A DNA stretch of 60,952 bases from an uncultured Lachnospiraceae bacterium. GTDB taxonomy: Bacteria; Bacillota; Clostridia; Lachnospirales; Lachnospiraceae. Below the pieces are notes generated by a model that was not told the origin of the DNA, made no database searches, and saw only the letters and a list, made by a program, of their open reading frames with translations. The DNA is taken from positions 1 to 60,952 of the forward strand of contig CANPXP010000009.1 of the NCBI GenBank assembly GCA_947586255.1, read 5' to 3'. Shown piece by piece: positions 4,313 to 58,262 of the stretch. Position 1 is the first letter of the stretch. The number at the start of each line of letters is the position of its first letter. The position numbers were made by a program, and so were the translations under genes.

Positions 4313-5968
4313 TCAGCCCCTGCCGCCCATGCGCCCCATAGAGCCCATATCCGAGACAACAATGTCGTCCGCTTCCACGAACGCGGAACTGTCTTTCGCC
4401 TGCTCCTCCTCAGTGGCGGGAATCGTTCCGGCCAGCTGTCCGCTCACGCTCTCGGCGCGCAGTTCGCAGAACGCTTCCAGCGTGGCGACGCCTTTTTCAA
4501 ATTCTTCATAAGTGCAGAACTTCGTAGGATCGCTCTCCACATAAGGCGCGATCATGGCGCGCGTGTCGTCGATCAGCTTCGCGAGATAACCGTTTTCAAA
4601 AAACTGCGCGATAAACTCGGAAAAATACTGGTGATACAGGTCGGTGTAATCGCTGTCTGCAAAAATCCAGGAGAGCATCGGCCTGGAATCGATCGTTCCG
4701 CCGGACACCGGCGTGTCAATGGGGTAATTGACGAGTCCTGCAGCATCGGTATTCGACTGGAAACTGCCAAAAGCCAGATTGTAGTCCCAGGGAATCATGG
4801 ACAGTTTTCCGTCATCCTCATACAGATAATAATTATGAATCATACCGCCGGTGTAGCTGTCGAAATTCAGCACGAAATTGTGCACCACAAAATACCGCAG
4901 TACCTCCTCCACGTCGACGACCTCTTCTATATCTTCGCGCTCGCTCAGTTTTTGCAGCGACTCGATGAGCCTCGTTTTATCGGCATCCGTGATGTCCGTC
5001 TTCGCATTATCAAAGATGTTGGCATAGCTGTCAAAGGCGTCGTCCGTGTAGGACAGCAGCACGTCGCTGTCCCCCATGACGCGGCCGGCCTCTCCGCCAC
5101 CCATGCCGCGACCGCCGGGCGCAGGACGCTCTCCTTCTTCCATGCCCCGACCTTTGAACATCGGCCGTTCGCCTTCCTCCATGCCTTGGCCTCCGAACGC
5201 CGGCGGTTCGCCTTCTTCCCTGTCAAAGCCGTCAAATGCCGGCGGCTCGCCGCCTTCCATCGCTTCCGGCTGAAAGTCAGGCGCCCCGTCTTCACCGAAA
5301 TCCATTTTTTCCATATCAAAATCATGCCCGTTGCCGCGGCCGCCGCCCATATCCATGCTGTCAGGTTTGTAGAGCTGCCCGTAGTCGCTGCCGTAATTTC
5401 GCTGCAAAAAGGAGTCCTCCACACCCTCCACGGCGAGATACAGCCCCCAGTCCTCGCCGTTCACCGTGATATAGCTGAAGCTGCACAGCGGCGCATCCGC
5501 ACCGAACTCACGCATCATACGGTAGACGAGGTAATCCTTCATATAAGTATTGTCCTGAATGATGTTGTTCAGGCACAATTTGTCTAGCCCATAGTAGCTG
5601 CCCCCGTCGTCATAATGATCAAACTCAATCTTAAAGCTGTATCTGTCATTTCCATAAGACTTTACCGATGTGAGGGAGGTATTTCCTTTTGCGCGCAGCG
5701 CCACGTTCCGATAAGCCTCGCCGTCGATCACAACCGTACAGTCGGCATACTCCTCGTCCGTACACTCTGCGATAAAAGAATCCCAATCGTCCATCTCGAT
5801 GTCAATCGTATGCACCCTGTCGGGATCAAACAGACGCGACGCATAGCCCACGGCGGCGCTGACCGCCTGAATCCCCAGACTGCCCGCGTTCATAAACACC
5901 ACGGTCAGGACGATGGCGCAGGCCAGCACAATACAGCATATTTGATCTATGTGCTTACTCGTAGACAT
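4313..5968 (-). CDS. CotH-type protein kinase family protein
   Basis: A 551-residue membrane-anchored CotH family protein. The N-terminal helix (about 10-30) anchors it outside the cell; the CotH fold follows, with ALRAKGNTS (90-98), the kinase-like core and MIPWDYNLAF (391-400), whose Asp is expected to bind metal. CotH in Bacillus phosphorylates spore-coat proteins; the role here is unknown. Residues 206-298 form an insertion with imperfect repeats such as EEGERPMFKGRGMEEGERP, rich in Gly, Glu and Pro, and the tail is Gly/Met-rich. It starts at ATG 5968 behind GGAGG, 11 bases after the DUF4956 gene, and is the last gene of a three-gene operon. Confidence 0.88.
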   Translation of the reverse strand: MSTSKHIDQICCIVLACAIVLTVVFMNAGSLGIQAVSAAVGYASRLFDPDRVHTIDIEMDDWDSFIAECTDEEYADCTVVIDGEAYRNVALRAKGNTSLTSVKSYGNDRYSFKIEFDHYDDGGSYYGLDKLCLNNIIQDNTYMKDYLVYRMMREFGADAPLCSFSYITVNGEDWGLYLAVEGVEDSFLQRNYGSDYGQLYKPDSMDMGGGRGNGHDFDMEKMDFGEDGAPDFQPEAMEGGEPPAFDGFDREEGEPPAFGGQGMEEGERPMFKGRGMEEGERPAPGGRGMGGGEAGRVMGDSDVLLSYTDDAFDSYANIFDNAKTDITDADKTRLIESLQKLSEREDIEEVVDVEEVLRYFVVHNFVLNFDSYTGGMIHNYYLYEDDGKLSMIPWDYNLAFGSFQSNTDAAGLVNYPIDTPVSGGTIDSRPMLSWIFADSDYTDLYHQYFSEFIAQFFENGYLAKLIDDTRAMIAPYVESDPTKFCTYEEFEKGVATLEAFCELRAESVSGQLAGTIPATEEEQAKDSSAFVEADDIVVSDMGSMGRMGGRG

Positions 5969-8433: not shown

Positions 8434-9354
8434 CTATGCATTGGCCATCGCGCAGAGTTCATCCAGCATCTTCGGAAGCTCCGTCGCCATATTCTCATCT
8501 GTAAACTGGCATGTGCCGACCTTCTTATGGCCGCCGCCGCCGTATTTGAGCATGAGACTTCCCACGTTCACGTCGCTGGTCTTGTTCAGAATGCTGTAAC
8601 CGACCGCCGCGGAGCAGCCGAGACCGCCCTTGCCGTTGACGATCCAGGCAGAGATATTCTGTTCCGGATACATGCTGTAAATCATGAAGCGGTTGCCGGT
8701 ATAGATCGTCTCCACGCCCCGCAGATCCGAGATAATCACGTTGCCGCGGATTTCCGTGTGAGCCTTGACCATCTCCTTGAACTTTTCGGTCTGTTCATTG
8801 TACACTTCGATGCGCTCCTTGACATCGGGAAGATTCAGAATTTCCTCCGTCGTCATGGTGCGGCAGGCGTCGATCAGCTTCTCCATCAGCTGATAGTTGG
8901 AGATCGTAAAGTTGCGGAACCGTCCGAGCCCCGTCCTGGGATCCATCAGATATCCCACCAGAATCCAGCCCTTCGGATTCTGAATTTCATCGATGGTGAG
9001 GTTGCCCGAATCCACCTTATCGACCGCCTCCATCATATCGTCAAACTGCGGGAATCTCTCTCTGCCGCCGTAGTACTCATATATGATTCGCGCGCAGGAG
9101 GGCGTGATACGGCTCTCCCCTTTGTACTTGCCTGCCAGCTGCAGCCTCTCATGCTCGCTGGAATGATGATCGAACCACAGTCCGCAGCCTTCCACATAAG
9201 GCACATTGGCCAGGCAGTCGTCCTCCGTGATCTCAATCAGACCGTCCTGCAGGTCTTTGGGATGCGCAAATTTCCAATGGTCAATAATGCCCGCTTCCTT
9301 CAATAACGCTCCGCAGGCAAGCCCGTCAAAATCCGAACGCGTCACTAATCTCAT
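8434..9354 (-). CDS. DHH/DHHA1 family phosphoesterase
   Basis: A 306-residue DHH phosphoesterase. Motif I is RSDFDGLACG near the start (metal-binding Asp pair), the DHH motif is WFDHHSSEHER, and the C-terminal DHHA1 half carries the substrate-binding KYGGGGHKKVGTCQF. The family includes nanoRNases, cyclic-dinucleotide phosphodiesterases and exopolyphosphatase-like enzymes; the substrate here cannot be told, though exopolyphosphatase activity would fit the nearby VTC polymerase. Start chosen at ATG 9354 because GGAGG lies nine bases upstream; an in-frame extension to 9420 has none. Confidence 0.88.
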   Translation of the reverse strand: MRLVTRSDFDGLACGALLKEAGIIDHWKFAHPKDLQDGLIEITEDDCLANVPYVEGCGLWFDHHSSEHERLQLAGKYKGESRITPSCARIIYEYYGGRERFPQFDDMMEAVDKVDSGNLTIDEIQNPKGWILVGYLMDPRTGLGRFRNFTISNYQLMEKLIDACRTMTTEEILNLPDVKERIEVYNEQTEKFKEMVKAHTEIRGNVIISDLRGVETIYTGNRFMIYSMYPEQNISAWIVNGKGGLGCSAAVGYSILNKTSDVNVGSLMLKYGGGGHKKVGTCQFTDENMATELPKMLDELCAMANA

Positions 9355-9930: not shown

Positions 9931-10485
9931 TTACCGCTCGCTGCGGTACGCTTCTATCGCCGTTTCATACAGATTATTGCCCACGGCGTCGATCACAACG
10001 ATCACGGGGAAGTCCTTTACCTCCAGCCTGCGGATCGCCTCCGTCCCGAGATCCTCGTATGCGATCACCTCAGCGCTCGTGATGGATCGGGAGAGAAGTG
10101 CCCCCGCGCCTCCCACCGCCGCAAAATAAACCGCCCCGTTTCTGACAATCGCCTCTCGCACAGCCTCCGCCCTTTTGCCCTTGCCGATCATACCAAGAAG
10201 CCCTCTGTCCAGGAGCGCCGGCGCATATTTGTCCATGCGGCTGGCCGTGGTCGGCCCGGCAGAACCGATGGGTCTTCCTTCCCGCGCCGGAGACGGCCCC
10301 ATATAATAAATGATATTGCCGTCCACGTCGAACGGCAGCGGCTCGCCCCGATCCAGCGCTTCCTGCATTCTCTTGTGCGCCGCGTCCCGCGCCGTATAGA
10401 TTGTCCCGGTAATATACACATAATCGCCGGCACGCAGTTCGCGTGCGGTTTCCCTGCTCACAGGCGCCTGTATATGCCGCTCCAT
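9931..10485 (-). CDS. fumarate hydratase, Fe-S type, beta subunit
   Basis: A 184-residue beta subunit of the class I (tartrate/fumarate) hydro-lyases, equal to the C-terminal part of single-chain FumA. Visible family motifs are RAGDYVYITGTIYTARDAAH, YYMGPSPAREGRPIGSAGPTT and IGKGKRAEAVREA, which shape the substrate site. Together with the alpha subunit it interconverts fumarate and malate in the anaerobe's partial citric acid cycle. It starts 18 bases after the alpha-subunit gene ends, consistent with an operon. Confidence 0.93.
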   Translation of the reverse strand: MERHIQAPVSRETARELRAGDYVYITGTIYTARDAAHKRMQEALDRGEPLPFDVDGNIIYYMGPSPAREGRPIGSAGPTTASRMDKYAPALLDRGLLGMIGKGKRAEAVREAIVRNGAVYFAAVGGAGALLSRSITSAEVIAYEDLGTEAIRRLEVKDFPVIVVIDAVGNNLYETAIEAYRSER

Positions 10486-10503
10486 CTCTCTTACCAGCCT
10501 TTC

Positions 10504-11346
10504 TTACAAAATCCGCACCGCGTGTCTGTTCACATGACAGCAAATATTGACCGCCACCGGCAGACCCGCGATATGCGTCGGATATGTATTGATGTTGACC
10601 GCCAGCGCCGTAGTCGTGCCGCCCAGTCCTCCCGGCCCGATTCCCGTCCTGTTGATCCGTGCCAGCATCTCCTCTTCCAGCTCTCTCACATAGGGGACGG
10701 AAGATCGCTCGCTGACAGGCCTCGTCAGCGCCTTTTTGGCCAGCAGCGCACATTTTTCAAAGGTGCCGCCAATGCCGACGCCCACAACCATCGGCGGACA
10801 GGCGTTCGGTCCGGCCTCCTCAACCGCCGTGAGAATCGCGTTTTTGACGCCCTCTATGCCGTCGGCGGGTTTGAGCATAAATATCCTGCTCATATTTTCA
10901 CTGCCGAAACCCTTGGGCGCAACCGTAATTTTGACACGGTCGCCTTCCGCAATCTCGTAATGAATGACCGCCGGCGTATTGTCCTTTGTATTCTCCCTGA
11001 TCAGCGGATCGCCCACGACAGATTTGCGCAGATACCCTTCCGTATATCCCTGTCGGACGCCTTCATGGATCGCCTCCTCCAGAAGACCGCCGGCAAAGTG
11101 CACGTCCTGCCCGATCTCCATGAAGATTACTGCCATACCGGTGTCCTGACAGATGGGAATCATGTCCTCCCCCGCAATCTTCAGGTTCTCCTGGAGCTGA
11201 CACAGAATCTGTCTGCCGAGAGGCGCCTTCTCGCTCTGTACGGCGGCCCTCATCGCTTCCTCCATATCCTCCGCCAGAAAATGATTTGCTTCGATGCACA
11301 TCTCTTTAATATTCCGTGTGACATCCGCAACATCTATCGTCCGCAT
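10504..11346 (-). CDS. fumarate hydratase, Fe-S type, alpha subunit
   Basis: A 280-residue alpha subunit of the oxygen-sensitive two-subunit fumarase. The expected [4Fe-4S] cysteines are C66 (PICQDTGM), C183 (GPNACPP) and one of C269/C270 (NICCHVNRH). The glycine-rich segment GIGPGGLGGTTTA is also present. The family includes tartrate dehydratase; fumarase is more likely from gene order alone with the beta subunit directly downstream. Full length, no anomaly. Confidence 0.93.
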   Translation of the reverse strand: MRTIDVADVTRNIKEMCIEANHFLAEDMEEAMRAAVQSEKAPLGRQILCQLQENLKIAGEDMIPICQDTGMAVIFMEIGQDVHFAGGLLEEAIHEGVRQGYTEGYLRKSVVGDPLIRENTKDNTPAVIHYEIAEGDRVKITVAPKGFGSENMSRIFMLKPADGIEGVKNAILTAVEEAGPNACPPMVVGVGIGGTFEKCALLAKKALTRPVSERSSVPYVRELEEEMLARINRTGIGPGGLGGTTTALAVNINTYPTHIAGLPVAVNICCHVNRHAVRIL

Positions 11347-48975: not shown

Positions 48976-49018
48976 TGACATACCGCGGGATATGACTTTT
49001 GACGCATTGACATACCGC
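48976..49018. repeat. direct repeat pair in the divergent sigma/kinase promoter region
   Basis: TGACATACCGC occurs twice, at 48976-48986 and 49008-49018, 32 bases apart (about three helical turns). The second copy overlaps the -35 box of the kinase promoter. Probably a regulator site. Confidence 0.6.
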
Positions 49019-49035
49019 CGACATTTCTATAGTAT
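49007..49035 (+). promoter_or_regulatory. promoter of the GHKL kinase gene
   Basis: -35 TTGACA (49007-49012) and -10 TAGTAT (49030-49035) with a 17-base spacer, 59 bases before the start codon. Confidence 0.7.
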
Positions 49036-49093
49036 TATGATGAAACAATCATCGGGTTTATGTTTTGCGCCGCCGACTGCGGAGGAGACAATT

Positions 49094-50404
49094 ATGGTTT
49101 CGACAATCTTACACGGCTTATGCGGTTTTTATTTGCAGCTTGCGCCCTGCAGCTTTTTCTGCCTCTACCCTTTTCTCGATTCCTTCCGCTATTCCAAGCG
49201 GCGGGTGATTGGGGCCATCTGCGCCGTCATGGCCGTCATGTCGGTTGTCTTTACCTGTGTTTATGTCGCCATGGATATTCCCTCCGGGACATACAATAAT
49301 TTCCTTCCGCTCAACCTGATTTTCCTGCTGACCGTCGGCTTGCTGATGGCCGTCTATTTGGCCTGCATCCGGGCGGCGGCGATTCATATGCTCTATACGG
49401 TGATTCTGGTGCTCAACTACGGATTTCTGACCTCGATGCTCGGAGACTGGATCGCTCCTGTGAGTTATCTGTACGACACCGGTTTCCTTCTGGTGAGCGC
49501 GCTGTCTACCGCCGTCATGTTTTACCCTATGCTGCACATTATGCGGCTCGCCCGCAGCGCCTTTGACAGCAGCATCGATCTGAGCGTCTGGAAATGGTTC
49601 GCGCTGATTCCGGGATTGTTTTTTGCCGCAATGCTGCTGTGCTATCACATTCCCATGAGCAGCGGCCTGTCCTCGGAAAATCTGTTAAATATTTTCATCC
49701 GGGCCATGTGCGTTCTGATGTTAATCATCTGCGCCATCAGCCTGCGCGCAATCCAGACCCTGCACCGGCAGTCGGACAAGCAGGCGTCTCTGGAGATCGC
49801 CGTCAACCATTACAAACTCGTGGCGGAACACACCGATAAAGAGCGGGAACTGCGGCACGAATTTCACCATCACATGACCGCCCTGTCCATCCTGATACAG
49901 AACCGTGATTATCAAGGCGCCGAAAACTACCTGAACAAAATCTCACAGCTTGATATCGACGCCGCCGAATTTTATACGCCCCATATACTGCTCAACTCCA
50001 TGCTGGCCGGCTACCAAAAACAGGCAGCCGCTGCGGGGATCCGAACGGACTATGTCATTGAAGTCCCGAATCCCATATCCATGGAGGATCTCGACTTGTG
50101 CCAGTTTCTCTCCAATCTGCTCGACAACGCTTTAGAAGCCTGCTCCCATCTGGAAGCCGGCATGCGGCGGCTGTCCCTGACGCTCAGGCAGAAGGGACGC
50201 TTCCTCTATTTTTGCTGTGAAAATTCCTGCGACCCGAAGTGGCTGCATCCCGCGAGCAACGGGTTTAAGACGACCAAATCCAATGAGTTCTCCCACGGTT
50301 ACGGCATTTCCATCATGAAGCGCATTGCAGAAAAATACGCCGGCGATTTTCGCACCGACGTACAGAATAATGTTTTTACGGTCACGGGGTATCTGTGTAT
50401 GTAA
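49094..50404 (+). CDS. GHKL domain sensor histidine kinase (AgrC-like)
   Basis: A 436-residue membrane kinase. Six to seven helices occupy residues 1-215; the linker contains the phosphoacceptor region ELRHEFHHHMTALSILIQNR; the GHKL ATPase domain follows with the N box FLSNLLDNALEAC and a G box HGYGISIMKRIAEKY. This is the quorum/peptide-sensor type that normally works with a LytTR regulator, but no response regulator gene is adjacent. Start at ATG 49094 behind GGAGGAGA; the frame is open further upstream across the promoter. Confidence 0.88.
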   Translation: MVSTILHGLCGFYLQLAPCSFFCLYPFLDSFRYSKRRVIGAICAVMAVMSVVFTCVYVAMDIPSGTYNNFLPLNLIFLLTVGLLMAVYLACIRAAAIHMLYTVILVLNYGFLTSMLGDWIAPVSYLYDTGFLLVSALSTAVMFYPMLHIMRLARSAFDSSIDLSVWKWFALIPGLFFAAMLLCYHIPMSSGLSSENLLNIFIRAMCVLMLIICAISLRAIQTLHRQSDKQASLEIAVNHYKLVAEHTDKERELRHEFHHHMTALSILIQNRDYQGAENYLNKISQLDIDAAEFYTPHILLNSMLAGYQKQAAAAGIRTDYVIEVPNPISMEDLDLCQFLSNLLDNALEACSHLEAGMRRLSLTLRQKGRFLYFCCENSCDPKWLHPASNGFKTTKSNEFSHGYGISIMKRIAEKYAGDFRTDVQNNVFTVTGYLCM

Positions 50405-50448
50405 TGTCTTATCAGATAGAAGGTTCCTTTCCAAATAAACATAAAGTC

Positions 50449-52461
50449 CTATTCTATGGTGAGAAGACTATCTTTAAAAGCCTTCGGATAAGACAATTTT
50501 ATAACAGCTTGCGCGAACACAATAACATAAGCATATACTGTTCCTTCACCAAAGCGATCATGCAACAAACTTTTACCATCGGGACAGAAACTAACCTCAT
50601 CTGGCAGTGATCTCAAATATGGTAGTTCAATGATCTTTGCAGGGCAATCAGGAAAACTTGCTTCAAGCGCCACAACTTGCCCTTCTCCAAAAACTTCATG
50701 TTTTACGATAGCACCGGCCGGTATTAAAAATTCTTCTAAATCTTTGCAAGCAATAGTTTCTCCTGCAATTTCAGACGCTTTTTCATAAACAGTAGTATCA
50801 ATATATTGTTTCCACGCTGGGGCTTCTAAGATATCTCTGCGGGACTCGCATCCTACAATCAACTCTCTAAGTTTTTCAGGATTTGCTTTATGCGATTCAA
50901 ACATTGCCACAAAATATTTCTGGAACTGTCCTAATGTCAACGGAACAATATCCAACCGCTGTTTTACATCACCTTTGGCATACCAAATACCATGTCTGAA
51001 TGTCTCTGCTGTGTTTGTGTCGATACGAACAGCAATAAACATACCGTATACAGGCTTATCATATTTCAGAACAGCATCGGAAACGTGCCGCCTGACAGGT
51101 TCGCCCTCCATTGCTTCCTGGCGGGAAGATGTGGACATAGTGACTTCAGTCAAGATTGTAAAGTCATTAAATTCACAATACAGATCTCCTTTTCCACCGC
51201 CCGCGGCTGAGACAGGCATGAAATCAGAATCCAATTTGAAGCCACGAACTTCATAAGGCTTATTGACCAAGTGATCAATCGCCAATACTGCGCGCCAGAG
51301 TGTCCATTCAAGATACGCTGGCGTTTCATCCCTGGGTACTTCAATGGCATTATCTTCATCGTAGATCAGCTTACCGCCGCCTTTGATTAGCAATGTCATA
51401 TAATCTCTGATTTCTTCCCACTGATTACACTGATCGTTGGCATACTGAATTTCGTCTGTTTGAGAGAGAATATTTTCGAGCCGCTGTCTTGCAATATTGA
51501 TTTCTGCCGAAGTATTCAGAGGCAGATCAGAAATATCAAATAGTATATGACGCTCTTTCATCTGCCTGATTAAATCATCCAACAAGGATTTTGCGACATC
51601 CAAGTTGTCAGTAGGTAACGGTGCACCAGCGCAGAGCAACTTATATTGCTCCATAATAGGAGCGGAACTTGCGGTAGATTTGGCAAGTTTCTCTGCCAGA
51701 ATATGCTTTGCAGGAACGATCATAAGCCCTCTGCCTTTTCGTTGAAGCACACCGGAAATACGAAGGTATCGCATATTCATATCGCTGTAATCCAAGAAAT
51801 TATCAGCTTTTTTGTCATAGTTTTCGCCTCTTTCGGCAATCTCTTTTCTGTCAAAGGCCCGCTTAGCCGGGGCAGCAGCCCTCCGTTGGCGCAGATCAAG
51901 TATTTTGTCAACAACTTCATCTAAGTTATAGCTGGGATTAGTAGTATGTCCCCACAGAGCAAATTCGATTCTGCTCAGTTCTGAAACTCCCGTGCGCTTC
52001 TCAAGCTCCAACATGATTGCTAGCAACCACCTTAACGGAGAAAAATAGTGTGTACCATCTGGCATCGGAAACTGTTCTACGCTCATCGCGCGGAGATAAC
52101 ATTCCTGTACAGCGGGGTATGTATCTGCTTTTAGAAACGATCTGCCAAAGGGCGTAATGTCGTCTAATGCGCCGAGTTCCTCTTGTTGACCATCTTTCGT
52201 CTGAATCTGCGGATAAATCAAGCCGTTCTTGGCAAACATCAAACGCCATTTACGGGCATGACTCCCAGAGCTGTCCTTACCTTCTTCGTTCTGAATGATA
52301 CCTTTTTCATCAAGCAAATTCATAAATCCAAGTTCATTTTCACGCCCATGAAGGTGACCGACAAATGCAGAGTTAGCAAAGACAGAAAATCCTTCTTGAA
52401 TTCGATTAGGATTGCGCAGGCCAGTGTTGCCTACCAACCATATTTTGATCTGCTCGCTCAT
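50449..52461 (-). CDS. AlwI-family type IIS restriction endonuclease
   Basis: A 670-residue protein resembling the AlwI restriction family. The nuclease core appears as GGGKGDLYCEFNDFTILTEV followed by QEAMEGEPVRRHV, a PD-(D/E)xK arrangement. The C-terminal 87 residues hold two copies of an H-x2-FGxGxV motif (HEVFGEGQVV about 588-597, HDRFGEGTVY about 634-643), as in Tudor/CarD-like modules, an unusual addition. Enzymes of this family cut beside an asymmetric site such as GGATC; the true site is unknown. The DNA is clearly more AT-rich than its surroundings, suggesting transfer. It starts 14 bases after the methyltransferase. Confidence 0.72.
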   Translation of the reverse strand: MSEQIKIWLVGNTGLRNPNRIQEGFSVFANSAFVGHLHGRENELGFMNLLDEKGIIQNEEGKDSSGSHARKWRLMFAKNGLIYPQIQTKDGQQEELGALDDITPFGRSFLKADTYPAVQECYLRAMSVEQFPMPDGTHYFSPLRWLLAIMLELEKRTGVSELSRIEFALWGHTTNPSYNLDEVVDKILDLRQRRAAAPAKRAFDRKEIAERGENYDKKADNFLDYSDMNMRYLRISGVLQRKGRGLMIVPAKHILAEKLAKSTASSAPIMEQYKLLCAGAPLPTDNLDVAKSLLDDLIRQMKERHILFDISDLPLNTSAEINIARQRLENILSQTDEIQYANDQCNQWEEIRDYMTLLIKGGGKLIYDEDNAIEVPRDETPAYLEWTLWRAVLAIDHLVNKPYEVRGFKLDSDFMPVSAAGGGKGDLYCEFNDFTILTEVTMSTSSRQEAMEGEPVRRHVSDAVLKYDKPVYGMFIAVRIDTNTAETFRHGIWYAKGDVKQRLDIVPLTLGQFQKYFVAMFESHKANPEKLRELIVGCESRRDILEAPAWKQYIDTTVYEKASEIAGETIACKDLEEFLIPAGAIVKHEVFGEGQVVALEASFPDCPAKIIELPYLRSLPDEVSFCPDGKSLLHDRFGEGTVYAYVIVFAQAVIKLSYPKAFKDSLLTIE

Positions 52462-52475
52462 GCTACAACCTCCAA

Positions 52476-54371
52476 TTAATATCCAACAAAGAGATATTCC
52501 TGTACGGAATTTCTATGTGATTTTGCGTCACTTTGGTTGCCAAAAGAATATTTATAGTTCACCGGAATCACTTCCACATGCTCTCTATATTTTGCCATAA
52601 TTGCTACCATTTCATCTTGCGTAGGCAAGCTGTTTGAAGAATAGGAAACAAGCAAAATGCTATTCGCAAATCTTCTAAATAGATGATCAAACGCATCTGC
52701 TGCGCCTTTGCGAGTAGCAAATGGCGTAGGATACGATTTGAACTTCTTGGTTTGCGTATGTTGCTGAATTTCAACACCCTTCCAGTCACGGGCAAGGCCT
52801 TCAACAAAATGATATCTACGAACATACTCATTGTCAGATAGTGGAGAGTAATACGGTGGGTCAATGTAAACCAAATCTGCTTGCTCCACTTTCAAATCCA
52901 TAGCGTCTCCCTGCTTGGAACAATTGACTTGACCATTGTCAAACACAGCATTATTGACTGCTTCAACAGCCTCCAGAAACTGCTGGGCAAGTGTTTTTTG
53001 TAAATCCTTACGACCATCATTGTATCGCTGTCCTGTGTAAGTAAATATACCGCGAGGACGTTTCTTCATACATGCCCGAATTAACGCTGTCATTGCAATA
53101 GCGTGTTTATATTGATCTTTGATAGCAGCGATATTGGTACGGAGCGTATCAATCAAATCATTTTCCTCATCGCTATAATATAGATCTTTGAAAGTCGATG
53201 CCACAAAATGATCTGACTCCCCATGTGCAATAATCAATTTCTCTGCTTCTTCTAATGGTAAAGTAATTGAATTGTTTTCTACCATTGCCTTAGTAAATGT
53301 TGCGGACATGGCCATATAATCATTACTGATCACTGCTTTGCCCTGTGCTTTGAACATATAGCTGACAATACCGGATCCTGAGAAAAGATCCACAACAGTA
53401 TTCACCTTAAATTGCGAGGCAACTGACCATATTTCAGACAGCAGTTTACTCTTGGAACCCATAAAACGAGTCGGCGGATAAACTGATACCTGTTCCGGCA
53501 GAGGCTGATGGAGCAGTTTTATTAAAGTGCGCTGCTTCGGAGGAATGGTAACAATGACATCCTCCCCTTTGCGGGTACTTCCATTACAAGAAATATGCCG
53601 CTTTGTTTGAATGACATCAATATTGAATGGCGCATATAACTCATGTACCAGCGGATGATTGGAATTTGTCAAAACAACATGACAACCCCGTTCATGTAAA
53701 GTCATGATCATCTTCGCGAGTTCAACATGATCCTCCTCGTAAAACTGTTCTTTGGTATATCGCTTAAAATCAGCATATTCAGAGATAGGCAAATACGGAG
53801 GATCCAGAAAAACAAAGTCTCCCGGCTGAGCGCAATGCTCCAAGACCTGCAGATAGTCGCCGCATAGTATATCCGCCCTTTTCAATGCTTCAGATGCTGC
53901 TCTCAATCCAGCCTCGTCGCAAATCTTAGGATTTTTGTATTTCCCATAGGGAACATTAAATTGTCCCTGTTTGTTGACACGATATAATCCATTAAAACAA
54001 GTTCTGTTCAGAAATATCGTCCTTGCAGCAGCTTCCGCCTTGGGGAGTTTCGTCCATTCCTGACTACGAACAGCATAAAACATCTCGGAAGTATTTTCGT
54101 ACTGTTTAAGAAATTGAATGACATTCTCTGCATGATCGGCAACTTCCCGATACATGTTAATCAATTCAGGATTGCTGTCCGCAATAATCGCGCTTTCTGG
54201 CTGCAAAGCAAAGAACATCGCGCCACCGCCAAAGAATGGTTCAATATATCGACCATAGGAGCTGGGTACTCTAGGTAAAAGATCTCCTAACATCTGTGTT
54301 TTACCACCAGCCCATTTCAGAATAGGCTTGGCTTGAACAGGCTCTACTTTTCTAACTGCTTGCTCTGCCAT
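52476..54371 (-). CDS. fused double Dam-type DNA adenine methyltransferase
   Basis: A 631-residue fusion of two N6-adenine methyltransferases. Domain 1 (about 15-285): KWAGGKTQMLGDLL, FFGGGAMFF (SAM site) and DPPY at 190-193. Domain 2 (about 298-631): RFMGSKSKLL, DLFSGSGIVSYMF and DPPY at 504-507. Two fused Dam-type domains, as in M.FokI, let one protein methylate both strands of an asymmetric site, which fits the type IIS nuclease downstream. Both active sites look intact. GAGGAGAG precedes ATG 54371. AT-rich, like its partner. Confidence 0.92.
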   Translation of the reverse strand: MAEQAVRKVEPVQAKPILKWAGGKTQMLGDLLPRVPSSYGRYIEPFFGGGAMFFALQPESAIIADSNPELINMYREVADHAENVIQFLKQYENTSEMFYAVRSQEWTKLPKAEAAARTIFLNRTCFNGLYRVNKQGQFNVPYGKYKNPKICDEAGLRAASEALKRADILCGDYLQVLEHCAQPGDFVFLDPPYLPISEYADFKRYTKEQFYEEDHVELAKMIMTLHERGCHVVLTNSNHPLVHELYAPFNIDVIQTKRHISCNGSTRKGEDVIVTIPPKQRTLIKLLHQPLPEQVSVYPPTRFMGSKSKLLSEIWSVASQFKVNTVVDLFSGSGIVSYMFKAQGKAVISNDYMAMSATFTKAMVENNSITLPLEEAEKLIIAHGESDHFVASTFKDLYYSDEENDLIDTLRTNIAAIKDQYKHAIAMTALIRACMKKRPRGIFTYTGQRYNDGRKDLQKTLAQQFLEAVEAVNNAVFDNGQVNCSKQGDAMDLKVEQADLVYIDPPYYSPLSDNEYVRRYHFVEGLARDWKGVEIQQHTQTKKFKSYPTPFATRKGAADAFDHLFRRFANSILLVSYSSNSLPTQDEMVAIMAKYREHVEVIPVNYKYSFGNQSDAKSHRNSVQEYLFVGY

Positions 54372-54407
54372 TGTACTGCTCTCCTCAATAGTTTCAAAGA
54401 CCGCTGA

Positions 54408-54436
54408 ATTCTATCACAGTCTTGTTATGTTTTCAA
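54408..54436 (-). promoter_or_regulatory. promoter of the restriction-modification operon
   Basis: -35 TTGAAA (54436-54431) and -10 TAGAAT (54413-54408), 17-base spacer, 37 bases before the methyltransferase ATG. The methyltransferase being first in the transcript would protect host DNA before the nuclease appears. Confidence 0.6.
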
Positions 54437-54457
54437 GATATACTGTATAATTTTGTT

Positions 54458-54482
54458 AAAAATAAACTGTCCATATAGTTTA
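54458..54482 (-). terminator. weak AT-rich terminator after the phosphoesterase remnant
   Basis: ATAAACT and AGTTTAT arms around an eight-base loop followed by a run of T on the minus strand, directly after the TGA of the broken gene. The stem is short and AT-rich. Confidence 0.35.
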
Positions 54483-54919
54483 TCATAAACGCTTCAAAAT
54501 AAACTCCCTGTTACAACGTATTACATCCGCAAGATTTCTCGGCGTAAAACCAAGTATATCCGCCCCTACATTATAACAGTTTGGCCTCTCAGATAATATA
54601 GAAATAGCCTCACTGCGAGAATTATGCACATGTCCGTATAAATGGATCGTATTGCGGTAATACCCGTCCCACTCCAAAATAGGATAATGGAACAAGACAA
54701 CGAGAGTGCTGCCGTCCGTAATGCGCAGATATTCCTGTACAGACGCAAAATACTTTAAGAGAAATCTCCCAGAATATATACGTCATCCTCATCATGCACT
54801 GCCGCGTTCCAGTTATTGATCAGGGTTTCATCCATCTCTTCTACGGAAGAAAACGGTCTGTTGCACATCTTTATGACATTGTAATGGCCCAGGTGAAGGT
54901 CAGAGATATAAAAATTCAT
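54483..54919 (-). pseudogene. calcineurin-like metallophosphoesterase, deleted and frameshifted
   Basis: The start is intact: ATG 54919 gives MNFYISDLHLGHYNVIKMCN and ends at VYILGDFS with a stop (near 54757). In another frame the end continues YFASVQEYLRI, LVVLFHYPILEWDGYYRNT and LYGHVHN, the normal C-terminal motifs. Between GD and the second part about 50 residues, including the GNHD metal motif, are missing. So an internal deletion with frame change destroyed the enzyme. Confidence 0.82.
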
Positions 54920-55026
54920 GAATAAACACCTTCCGCTTTCTGCTTTATTTTTTCTCTGTCAAAACATCCGCCGTTGTTGTAAGTATACCACAGAACAAAA
55001 TGCCTGTGTAGTTTCCTTATGCAAGG

Positions 55027-55055
55027 TTGCCGTTTCATATATTTTGTGTTAAAAT
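55027..55055 (+). promoter_or_regulatory. promoter of the macro-TIR gene
   Basis: -35 TTGCCG (55027-55032) and -10 TAAAAT (55050-55055), 17-base spacer, giving an untranslated leader of roughly 100 bases. Confidence 0.5.
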
Positions 55056-55159
55056 AAACAAAATATCGGCAGAAAACAAGGGGAAACGCAACGAACGAGC
55101 TGACTGATCAGGGCCGACAACTTTGCGCCGCAGCTTTGACAGCACAGGGAGGTATGAAT

Positions 55160-56155
55160 ATGCAGCAATCTTTTTGTTACATGACAAAATCCGGTCGGAA
55201 GCGAAACATAGAGGTATACTGCGGAGAACTGGAAGAGCTGGATCTTCAGGCGGATCTGTTGGTCTGTTCCGCTTTCTTACATAACTATATGCCGTCTCAA
55301 AGTTCGCTGATCGGTACGCTTCAGAGAACGTACGGGATCTCCGTGGAAAGCCTCGCGGCTCAGCCGGAGGTCGATATGCGGGAACTCGGCATATGGATAT
55401 CCGGACCGGTTGCGGACGCGCCCTTTCGGCGGATTGCCTGCCTGGAGATGGAAGGTCGCGAACAGAAGCTGCAGTCTTATTTTGAGACCGTCTTCTTTGC
55501 GCTCGCCAGCGGAAACCGCAGAGGCTGCAAAATCAGGACGATCGCCCTGCCGTTGGTGGGAACCGGCAATCAGGCGATGAATCCCCAGGATATCTTTGTG
55601 CCGCTGATCGCGGAGAGCCTGTATGGTTTTGAGCTTGTGGAGGAGTTGGAGAAGATCGTTTTCTTTGAGCGAGACGCGGAGAAGTATCGCTATATGTGCG
55701 AGTATCTGGCGCAGGAGCTGGAGAAAGAGGAGAGCCGCTCGTTTTTCATCAGCTACAGTCATAAAGACGCGGTCGCTGCCGACCTGATCGCCAATGTTCT
55801 GGAGCGGAACGGAATGAAAGTATGGATCGACCACAAAAAGATCCGCAATGCGAATTATCCGGAGGAAATCATCCGGGCGATGGAAACCTCCTCGGCATTT
55901 ATCATTCTCGTCAGTACCAATTCCCAGAATTCCGTGGATGTGAAGCGTGAGCTGCGCAATGCCGGAGAATTTGAACGGACCATCGAGCTCCAGATTCTTC
56001 CGATACGTCTGGATCGTGAGGAATTTACGCCGGAGGTCAAGTATTACCTCGCAGGCAAAAACTATTACGAGCTGCCGGATGTCACGGAAGAAGCGGTCGC
56101 CGAAATCTGCCGCAAGATTGCGGAAGCATCCCTGCCAAAGCGAAATGCAGAGTGA
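55160..56155 (+). CDS. macro-like domain fused to a TIR domain
   Basis: A 331-residue soluble protein. Residues 14-175 look like a macro-type ADP-ribose fold (EVYCGELEELDLQADLLVCS, then KIRTIALPLVGTGNQAMNPQ as the phosphate loop). Residues 193-290 are a TIR domain: RSFFISYSHKDAVAADLIAN, VWIDHKKIRNANYPEEIIRA and SQNSVDVKRELRNAGE, where Glu264 is the expected NADase residue. Bacterial TIR domains cleave NAD+ or make cyclic ADP-ribose signals in phage defence. Start chosen at ATG 55160, seven bases after AGGGAGG; ATG 55154 is too close. It faces away from a restriction-modification operon. No partner gene lies beside it. Confidence 0.75.
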   Translation: MQQSFCYMTKSGRKRNIEVYCGELEELDLQADLLVCSAFLHNYMPSQSSLIGTLQRTYGISVESLAAQPEVDMRELGIWISGPVADAPFRRIACLEMEGREQKLQSYFETVFFALASGNRRGCKIRTIALPLVGTGNQAMNPQDIFVPLIAESLYGFELVEELEKIVFFERDAEKYRYMCEYLAQELEKEESRSFFISYSHKDAVAADLIANVLERNGMKVWIDHKKIRNANYPEEIIRAMETSSAFIILVSTNSQNSVDVKRELRNAGEFERTIELQILPIRLDREEFTPEVKYYLAGKNYYELPDVTEEAVAEICRKIAEASLPKRNAE

Positions 56156-56197
56156 CGGTAATCCGGCAACCGCTTTTCCCAAACGCTCAATTCATCA

Positions 56198-57847
56198 TCA
56201 TCCATCAATAATGTAATCCTGCGGGTCGATAAACTCCCCGTTCCTGCTCAGGGCAAAGTGCAGATGCGGTCCCGTAGCCCTCCCCGTCTGTCCCACGGCG
56301 GCGATCTTGTCGCCGCATTTTACCTCTTCGTCTTTTCGGGCGGTAATTTCCTGACAATGGCAATAATAGGTCATATCGCCGTTCGCGTGAAGAAGCACGA
56401 TATAATTACCGTCTTCTGCCGAATATTCCGTCTCATATACCACGCCGTCTGCTGCCGCCTTGACGTCGGTGCCCTTCTCCGCCGCATAATCGATCCCCTC
56501 ATGTCTGATGACTTCCTGCGTGGCAGGATTTATCCGCTCTCCAAAAACAGCGGATATTCCGGTATATTCGCAGGGTTCCGCATAGAGGCGCTCGCTGTCC
56601 GCAGCGGAAACGTCAGCCCTCTCTGTATTGGCATTGCCGGATTCCGCATCGGCCTCTTCCTGCGGTGCTTTGTTTTCTGTGTCAGGCTTCTCATCTGCCA
56701 CAGCCTCTTCGGCCGCGGGCACATCGGCTGTTCCGCTCTCTGTCTCGTTCTGCTTTTCATCTGCCGATGCCTCTGCCTGTATCGGTTCCATGGGCCGTAC
56801 CGTCCCGTCTGCCCTGTCCGCAGATACACCTGTAAAAGTGCAGCCCACCGTGACAAGCATCAGAAGCGCCGCCAGCATACCCGCCCACAGCTTGCCGCTG
56901 CCGCTGTTTTCCACCAGCCGCCTGATCCTTTCTTTCAGCTCCGACCGGCGCGGGCGCAGCATTGTGCCGCGGGGATAAAAGCTCTTGCCTCTTTTCACTT
57001 TCGTAAATGCCAAAAGCATTTCACTGTACGCGATCCGTTCTCCTTGCCGCAGACGGCGGGTCGTGCCGTAGTCACAGGCGATCTCCCCGTCTTTGGCGGA
57101 GCATATCGCTGCGATCCACACCAGCGGGTGGAACCAGTATACGGTGACGAGCGCAGCGCGCACCAACGCCCAGAGATGATCCCCGTGCAGACAGTGCACC
57201 TTTTCATGCGTCACGGCATAACGAAAATAATCTGAATTCTTGTCAAGTTCTGTGCCGACATAGACTGCCGGGCAAAAAACGCCGGCCAGACACGGCGTCT
57301 CCAAACCCTTAACCCTATAGACCGGAATATGGCAGTTCTCCGCCGCATCCCGCGCGCCGCCCGTACAGCGGGTGCGGCTTCTGCGCAATCTCCGCAGAAA
57401 ACAGCCATGGGAAAGCAGCAGAACGCCTCCCACAAGCACGCTTCCCGCAAACCATACCACAGGCAATACCCGGCCTGATATCTCTGCTATAGAGCCGCGC
57501 CGGTCCGTCTGACTCACAAAATTTTTCTCTTCGTCCGCAGCGACTGTCACATGATCCGTTATGATGTGAGCCGCCGCAGCATCCGATTCTCCGCCTTGCC
57601 CGCTTAAGTCTGACCTGTCCGCCGCAACATACCGCTGCAGCGTCTTTTCCTGCCGGCCGTCGGCTGCTCCCGCAACCCGGAGCACGCTGAGCGGACTGTC
57701 CAGAAAATTAAACGGCATCATCAGCCGCAGAACCACGAGCAGCCACAAACCGTACCGCAGATATGCGTGCAGTCTCTCCCCGAACAATTTCTGCACCGCA
57801 AGTATTGCCATTATCAGAATTGCCGTCTGTATCATAATCCCTGCCAT
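56198..57847 (-). CDS. M56 (BlaR1/MecR1-like) membrane peptidase fused to M23 peptidase
   Basis: A 549-residue protein. The N-terminal M56 part (1-340) has four membrane helices and the zinc motif HEKVH (214-218) followed by WFHPLVWIAA. Where BlaR1 has a penicillin-binding sensor, there is an acidic linker (about 345-420) and an M23/LytM endopeptidase domain (about 430-549) with HEGIDYAAEKGTDVKAAADG and HLHFAL. So it may sense or cut cell-wall peptides outside and cleave the BlaI repressor inside (inference). It follows the BlaI gene by 15 bases. Confidence 0.87.
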   Translation of the reverse strand: MAGIMIQTAILIMAILAVQKLFGERLHAYLRYGLWLLVVLRLMMPFNFLDSPLSVLRVAGAADGRQEKTLQRYVAADRSDLSGQGGESDAAAAHIITDHVTVAADEEKNFVSQTDRRGSIAEISGRVLPVVWFAGSVLVGGVLLLSHGCFLRRLRRSRTRCTGGARDAAENCHIPVYRVKGLETPCLAGVFCPAVYVGTELDKNSDYFRYAVTHEKVHCLHGDHLWALVRAALVTVYWFHPLVWIAAICSAKDGEIACDYGTTRRLRQGERIAYSEMLLAFTKVKRGKSFYPRGTMLRPRRSELKERIRRLVENSGSGKLWAGMLAALLMLVTVGCTFTGVSADRADGTVRPMEPIQAEASADEKQNETESGTADVPAAEEAVADEKPDTENKAPQEEADAESGNANTERADVSAADSERLYAEPCEYTGISAVFGERINPATQEVIRHEGIDYAAEKGTDVKAAADGVVYETEYSAEDGNYIVLLHANGDMTYYCHCQEITARKDEEVKCGDKIAAVGQTGRATGPHLHFALSRNGEFIDPQDYIIDG

Positions 57848-57862
57848 GATCTTTTCTCCTTC

Positions 57863-58246
57863 TCACTTCTTCTCTTTTGCCTCTTTGATGATACGGTACA
57901 GTTCTTCCATCTCCGCGTCGGAAATCTCCTGCTTTTTTACCAACGTGTTCACCAGCAGGCCGAGACTGCCGTTATAGATCCTGTTCAGGAAACTGTTCGT
58001 CTCAGACTCCACCACTTCCTCCCGCTTTACGACCGCATAGTACTCCCGCGCCTTTTCTCCTTCCCTATAGGCAATACAGCCTTTTTGTTCCAGACGTCTG
58101 AGCATGGTCTTCGTGGTGCTCTTCGCCCAGCCGGTTTCCTGTTCCATCGCTCTGATGATCTGTGTCGCCGTTTTCGGCGAATCTTCCCAGAGATATTCCA
58201 TAATGTACCATTCATTGTTTGACAGTCCGACGCCTCTCTCTTCCAT
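57863..58246 (-). CDS. BlaI/MecI/CopY family transcriptional repressor
   Basis: A 127-residue winged-helix repressor: LSNNEWYIMEYLWEDSPKTA, the recognition helix GWAKSTTKTMLRRLEQKGCI, and a C-terminal dimer helix. BlaI proteins are inactivated by cleavage by their M56 partner, encoded immediately downstream. Beta-lactamase is not encoded in the window; cell-envelope genes or the ABC exporter upstream are possible targets. Confidence 0.9.
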   Translation of the reverse strand: MEERGVGLSNNEWYIMEYLWEDSPKTATQIIRAMEQETGWAKSTTKTMLRRLEQKGCIAYREGEKAREYYAVVKREEVVESETNSFLNRIYNGSLGLLVNTLVKKQEISDAEMEELYRIIKEAKEKK

Positions 58247-58262
58247 AACTTCCTCCCTGTTT

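Follow-up and report, generated by a model that had tools for sequence, protein, structure and literature searches.

A divergent macro domain fused to a TIR domain in a Lachnospiraceae genome: a candidate one-protein phage-defense switch

We analyzed a gene that joins a macro-like domain to a TIR domain, carried on a 60,952-nucleotide stretch of DNA (the window) from an uncultured Lachnospiraceae bacterium whose genome comprises 2.78 Mb and is 85% complete. The reading frame at 55160-56155 on the forward strand is intact and encodes a 331-residue protein; the longest stop-free run in 1,000 mononucleotide shuffles of the same stretch was 189 codons, and a ribosome-binding-like GGGAGG lies, by eye, just 5′ of the ATG at 55160. 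Compared with an 88% identical homologue (locus L002), the gene shows a ratio of nonsynonymous to synonymous substitution rates (dN/dS) of 0.075 at a dS of 0.83, and since the ratio is 0.067 for the N-terminal half and 0.087 for the TIR half, both halves are maintained, that is, purifying selection acts on both domains. The features of this gene are as follows.

55160-56155, forward strand: macro-TIR gene, 331 amino acids
55160-55720, forward strand: divergent macro domain, residues 1-187
55253-55255, forward strand: codon of Asp32, the adenine-binding Asp position of macro domains
55559-55567, forward strand: codons of Gly134-Thr135-Gly136, the GxG loop of macro domains
55742-56101, forward strand: TIR domain (TIR_2), residues 195-314
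55949-55951, forward strand: codon of Glu264, the candidate catalytic Glu

Residues 195-314 are assigned by Pfam to TIR_2 (E = 1.3e-19; 71.3 bits compared to a cut-off of 28). When the TIR profile was compared with the PDB, the best match was Cat1 (9.6e-16), followed by TIR-1/SARM1, in which the Glu aligned with E264 is the one that we take to be catalytic in SARM1. S198, D224, S258, and E264 fall on S7, D33, S68, and E74 of Cat1 in the profile alignment, residues that line the Cat1 NADase (NAD+-cleaving) site and of which the D33A, S68A, and E74A mutants are defective in growth arrest, D33A being partly active in vitro (PMC12162218, in the sections drawn on here). E264 and S258 are invariant across all 19 rows of a TIR alignment made of five macro-TIRs and 14 chosen TIR matches from the family-genome search, leaving out matches with internal stop codons and some others, and D224 is kept in three of the five macro-TIRs, the other two having Ala. 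The intact candidate catalytic Glu264 named by the original prediction, which had been made by eye from the DNA, is thus borne out. Among models of known defense systems, the best PADLOC match is SAVED_TIR (3e-13; residues 193-274, within the TIR part), the PADLOC ThsB models match the TIR at 2e-08 at best, Pfam ThsB_TIR is barely over its cut-off (25.1 compared to 21.2 bits), and the NCBIfam model for ThcB4 of type III Thoeris (4.4e-07) reaches 29.1 bits, far below its cut-off of 220. The TIR domain appears to carry the key residues of an active NADase and would be predicted to cleave NAD+.

On residues 1-187 Pfam matched no family, even at an E-value limit of 10 and with its curated Macro model included, so that more distant methods were needed for the macro assignment. 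A four-row profile of this N-domain (A2), compared with the PDB, found macro domains in all 10 matches at E ≤ 1 (best, 0.0086). With a six-row profile (A5) the count was 10 of 11 (best, PARP14 at 0.0026), including TTHA0132, presumably a macro protein, and the eleventh match was an acetyltransferase at E = 0.57; the two extra genome matches of A5 (<0.001) are canonical macro proteins by eye. An AlphaFold2 model built from four sequences has a mean predicted local distance difference test score (pLDDT) of 65.8 and scores of 70 to 93 in 18 of the 19 blocks of ten residues that make up the N-domain. Foldseek with this model found macro domains in 42 of the 50 matches listed (E of about 1e-7 to 1e-5), including macroH2A, PARP9/14/15, MacroD2, YmdB, and OiMacroD, with target-normalized template modeling (TM) scores mostly about 0.7 among the matches listed. 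The other eight of these 50, the top-ranked match among them, are titled SPX-domain entries, presumably proteins crystallized on a macroH2A carrier, the titles being incomplete. Asp32 and both glycines of the GxG loop are identical in 6 of 6 sequences. In the alignment to TTHA0132, Asp32 falls on the Asp of GDAIVNAA; taken alone, this stretch lacks significance and in that respect speaks against the assignment. Together, the profiles, the cross-matches with canonical macro proteins, the AlphaFold2/Foldseek model, and the conserved Asp32, Gly134, and Gly136 identify residues 1-187 as a divergent macro domain, and the proposed joining of a macro-like and a TIR domain in one protein is upheld by these profile and structure comparisons together with Pfam TIR_2. 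Hydrolases of the MacroD type are marked by the Asn of an NAAN motif and a glycine-rich catalytic loop. The N-domain has neither: placed by the TTHA0132 stretch, the two Asn positions hold Cys/Val36 and Phe/Tyr39, and a PSQSSLIG-like segment takes the place of the loop. Because both elements are replaced, the domain is expected to bind a ligand without hydrolyzing it.

The macro-TIR is patchily distributed. Searching 299 genomes of the family with the whole protein gave a match in 39, of which the genome of the window and G226 (44% identity) matched over the full length and G202 over the N-domain only; in all other rows the match starts no earlier than residue 159, at the TIR domain or shortly ahead of it. 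The N-domain profile was then counted at E ≤ 0.001 in genome draws that overlap, so that the counts are not additive: 1 of 398 genomes in the phylum draw and 1 of 77 in the genus draw (in both, the genome of the window itself), 4 of 397 in the family draw (own, G226, G202, and G833), 2 of 391 in the class draw (own and G1174), and 3 of 166 in the order draw, two of which are canonical macro proteins; in the genus of G226 (1 of 2) and the family of G1174 (1 of 115), the only match was the respective genome itself. Weak matches at E of 0.0015 to 0.1, which make up 25 of the 29 genomes matched in the family draw, were taken as chance after inspection of the best one (L038). A scan of GTDB contigs, which reaches close relatives only, found one relative, the 88% identical homologue of L002 in a metagenome-assembled genome titled uncultured Acetatifactor. 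A plasmid match from Candidatus Chlorohelix, which starts at residue 145, was rejected, since its N-terminal part is FHA plus GAF-like by eye, not macro. In total, five macro-TIR proteins were found, 27 to 88% identical to that of the window; the one from G1174 begins with a zinc-ribbon-like segment that scores below the Pfam cut-off. The genome of the window also encodes a second TIR protein (G000 contig C53, 15882-16253, L108; 555 amino acids), by eye without a macro part, and a second TIR protein of G226 was set aside because its N-terminal part differs by eye.

The protein from G202 (P0004; L005, 1390-2556) carries the macro-like N-domain joined to DUF4145 (3.6e-08) instead of TIR, and the two TIR proteins of this genome lie on other contigs. 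A Nostoc plasmid match of the P0004 N-domain (E = 0.7) was discarded as weak and antisense to an annotated gene. This exchange of modules fits a portable sensor with an exchangeable output and, because the DUF4145 sister has the same N-domain, suggests that the macro half may serve as the input. The original prediction had left it open whether the macro part restrains the enzyme, senses, or binds its product; the macro-DUF4145 protein would favor the sensor, without proving it.

The macro-TIR gene lies within a variable segment whose remaining features are the following.

50404-56217, no strand: variable insert of ~5.8 kb flanked by genes for a GHKL kinase and an M56/M23 peptidase, missing in the related genome G759 by blastn
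50449-52461, reverse strand: AlwI-type restriction endonuclease (RE_AlwI, 5e-99; PADLOC REase_II, 6.3e-152)
52476-54371, reverse strand: D12 N6-adenine DNA methyltransferase (MethyltransfD12, 2.4e-89; PADLOC MTase_II PDLC03261, residues 13-631)
54487-54920 (about), reverse strand: interrupted metallophosphoesterase-like remnant, by eye

Because window positions 49005-50402 and 56218-58256 lie 30 bp apart in G759 (L081), the segment 50404-56217, which holds the endonuclease, the methyltransferase, the phosphoesterase-like remnant, and the macro-TIR, is a discrete insert in the window, or else a deletion in G759. At the same junction, G755 carries an Abi_2/AbiD gene within 1 kb (1.1e-35 and 2.4e-44; L083, 505-1089), the other flank being beyond the contig end, and G758 carries a 172-residue CdiA_C-like protein (2.3e-21; L082, 7142-7660) beside a GNAT-like gene (by eye), the kinase gene being missing there. 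In G763 no defense gene was seen by eye among the open reading frames of at least 150 residues on the side of the junction examined. The five genomes thus comprise two with recognized defense genes at the site (own and G755), one with an arguable case (G758), one that is empty (G759), and one in which none was seen (G763). The GC content at third codon positions (GC3) is 0.65 for the macro-TIR and 0.62 to 0.70 for four flanking genes, compared to 0.37 to 0.39 for the restriction-modification genes; the remnant, with a GC content of 0.41, resembles the latter. Because GC3 is host-like in the macro-TIR and low in the restriction-modification genes, the two probably differ in origin and would represent two arrivals in one insert, and a single cotransferred operon is weakened both by this difference and by the opposite strands. 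The neighboring restriction-modification pair reported by the original prediction is real, its broken gene is the remnant read by eye, and its argument that the location supports a defense role holds in part: the site is variable and bears an Abi_2/AbiD allele in a relative, but the macro-TIR probably did not come with the restriction genes.

We further compared six loci of 3.4 to 14 kb (230 open reading frames of at least 80 amino acids, E ≤ 1e-4). Apart from the macro-TIR or macro-DUF4145 genes and the antisense shadows of these, two kinds of gene recurred across loci, both outside the insert in the window: ABC ATPases, which the window shares with L066, and a GHKL kinase, which it shares with L068. 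No conserved partner gene emerged in this comparison, in agreement with the claim that no separate effector adjoins. As to whether homologues lie among defense genes, the picture is mixed. The G1174 locus (L065) contains a serine recombinase, a second TIR gene, and a canonical MacroD gene 25 bp downstream of the macro-TIR, L068 spans 3.4 kb only, and the remaining homologue loci are taken up below. The second TIR gene of L065 (2427-4016) encodes TIR, BspA-type leucine-rich repeats, and CutA1 in one protein and is followed by a stand-alone CutA1 gene; to our knowledge, a CutA1-TIR fusion is unusual. Two copies of the MacroD gene, a truncated one upstream (4872-5156) and a full one (8491-9003), are 97% identical in their shared part and bracket the macro-TIR stretch, possibly as a trace of its arrival. 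MacroD was rejected as a constant partner, since it adjoins the macro-TIR at one of the six loci; outside G1174, neither macro-TIR nor purF was found beside MacroD at the 11 loci inspected (flanks of about 1.5 kb, one shorter) among the 23 MacroD places listed. In L002, the macro-TIR homologue is followed after 47 bp by a same-strand gene (10390-11199) for a 269-residue protein, which is unmatched in Pfam and PADLOC and has no relative at the other five loci.

Based on these observations, we propose that the macro-TIR gene may encode a one-protein sensor-effector switch of phage defense, a reading to which we assign a probability of about 0.5. The N-terminal macro domain would bind an ADP-ribose-type ligand that appears in infection, for which free ADP-ribose, an adenine dinucleotide, or an ADP-ribosylated macromolecule are candidates, and the ligand could stem from the TIR domain's own product, from the signal of another TIR protein, or from ADP-ribose chemistry brought by the phage. 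Bound ligand would gather protomers and let two TIRs make up a composite NADase site that includes Glu264, and the ensuing consumption of NAD+ would arrest the infected cell before phage release. This sequence of ligand on the macro domain, assembly, and NAD+ destruction is suggested because a putatively nonhydrolytic macro domain precedes an active-looking TIR domain. It has precedents: a nucleotide that induces assembly switches the known sensor-TIR proteins, in type II Thoeris the macro domains bind ADP-ribose and, better, an imidazole adenine dinucleotide, those of type II ThsA oligomerize further upon ADP-ribose binding (PMC11204291, in excerpt), and the TIR active site of Cat1 is built by ligand-driven stacking of two TIRs (PMC12162218). 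For the macro-TIR, we infer ligand binding, oligomerization, NADase activity, and a role against phages from the sequence, and the self-contained NAD+ depletion of the original prediction is likewise a proposal that we share.

Several results weigh against this switch. By sequence, the macro assignment rests on E-values of 0.003 to 0.01, and an hhalign comparison of A5 with a two-row alignment of canonical MacroD gave no match (probability, 2.9%), the negative outcome among the profile and structure comparisons. In the AlphaFold2 model, the block with the GxG loop (residues 131-140) has a pLDDT of 58, and from residue 191 on every block of ten is at 55 or less, so that the arrangement of the two domains cannot be read from it. 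The mapping onto the Cat1 site covers S7, D33, S68, and E74, to which the full site adds K121 and Y122 from the second protomer, and with only five macro-TIR proteins the evidence from conservation is thin. The surroundings of L002, L066, and L067 are mostly housekeeping by eye with no obvious defense gene, a GGDEF-EAL gene of L002 being identified by family match rather than by eye. Finally, no relative was found in phage records or in two scans of viral contigs, the second of which used two peptide patterns, and none of the plasmid records spans 80% of the macro-TIR protein.

In a narrower form of the proposal, which we hold only tentatively, the protein would act as a guard: a portable macro sensor, with TIR or DUF4145 as output, would detect ADP-ribosylation or free ADP-ribose made by the phage and destroy the remaining NAD+. 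The phage source would be ADP-ribosyltransferases or NAD+-rebuilding pathways, and the whole response would lie within one gene, a combination that we likewise consider rather doubtful. Alternatively, the macro domain could bind what its TIR domain makes, be it ADP-ribose or a base-exchange dinucleotide, and thereby strengthen assembly, so that a weak trigger other than the product leads to an all-or-none collapse of NAD+. This feed-forward scheme, which overlaps with the switch proposed above, is suggested by the fusion of an ADP-ribose-binding fold to a likely ADP-ribose maker and by the behavior of the type II ThsA macro domains, which bind ADP-ribose and oligomerize (PMC11204291); the same N-domain stands before DUF4145, however, which offers no hint of ADP-ribose making, yet the two TIR proteins of G202 could supply the ligand there. 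We regard it as unlikely. Two further schemes seem improbable. Were the macro domain an antitoxin-like restraint that holds the TIR in an inactive state or removes ADP-ribose signals, the MacroD gene just downstream of the macro-TIR in G1174 would be in keeping with it, but this adjacency occurs at one of six loci, the N-domain lacks the NAAN Asn and glycine-rich loop of MacroD, and a DUF4145 version would have no need of such clearing. Equally improbable is a Thoeris-like arrangement, in which the TIR produces a nucleotide signal that is read by an effector from another part of the genome: it is favored by the PADLOC ThsB and Pfam ThsB_TIR matches and, in its E-value, by ThcB4, whereas no effector gene occurs in the insert and none is common to the six loci, a comparison that did not extend to ThsA genes in other parts of the genome. 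A role outside defense, as a stress or metabolic NADase or a scaffold, agrees with the three mostly housekeeping loci and the host-like GC but fits poorly with the patchy presence, the Abi_2/AbiD gene at the variable site of a relative, and the recombinase-bearing context in G1174, and is the least probable.

Macro domains have been predicted to regulate anti-phage TIR systems (PMC9503650, in excerpt), and the authors of PMC11204291 ask whether other macro domains of defense systems oligomerize upon nucleotide binding. With 331 residues, the macro-TIR would be a simple test case for such nucleotide-driven oligomerization; it could show whether ADP-ribose, an output of TIR immunity, can also act as its input, and the macro-DUF4145 protein would let the same sensor be read out independently. 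In the open-licence PMC literature we found no description of a macro-TIR fusion, although one may exist elsewhere. Within that literature, no paper pairs the term "macro domain" with DUF4145, macro domains go unmentioned in the text of PMC13174449, which treats DUF4062 TIR-like NADases, and the excerpts of two comparative-genomics papers contain macro domains once each, not joined with TIR in one protein.

Compared to known systems, the macro-TIR is closest in its TIR domain to Cat1, a CARF-TIR protein of type III CRISPR (clustered regularly interspaced short palindromic repeats) systems, which likewise joins a nucleotide-sensing domain to a TIR, is the best PDB match, and shares the S, D, S, and E positions of the active site (with D in three of five macro-TIRs). 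In Cat1, however, the TIR comes first (the match covers residues 3-97 of 263) and CARF senses cyclic oligoadenylate, whereas the protein of the window has the macro domain first and the insert contains no CRISPR gene. Type II Thoeris, with its transmembrane-macro protein ThsA and its TIR protein ThsB, also combines macro and TIR in NAD+-derived signaling, and D83 of EcThsA, equivalent to the adenine-position Asp (PMC11204291), corresponds to Asp32 of the macro-TIR; it differs in using two proteins and a membrane effector where the macro-TIR uses one chain. No ThsA chain occurs among the PDB sequence matches or the Foldseek matches listed, and we rejected membership in Thoeris, since no gene for a ThsA effector accompanies the macro-TIR in the insert, no neighbor is shared among the six loci, and the ThcB4 score is far too low. 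The SAVED-TIR and TIR-STING effectors of the cyclic-oligonucleotide-based antiphage signaling system (CBASS) resemble the macro-TIR as sensor-TIR fusions, and PADLOC SAVED_TIR matches its TIR part; membership was again rejected, as the N-terminal half contains no SAVED or STING domain and no cyclase is found among the genes of the insert. SpbK is alike as a one-protein TIR NADase taken to be itself the effector in abortive infection but is triggered by the phage protein YonE, and the sections of PMC12847820 considered here mention macro domains for ThsA only. The macro domains of macroH2A and PARP9/14 share the fold and a GTGN-type loop; among the 50 Foldseek matches listed, identity is 10 to 18% and no TIR is joined to them. 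Given that sensor-TIR fusions with CARF, SAVED, and STING are already known, we file the macro-TIR as a variant of these sensor-TIR effectors, belonging neither to Thoeris nor to CBASS.
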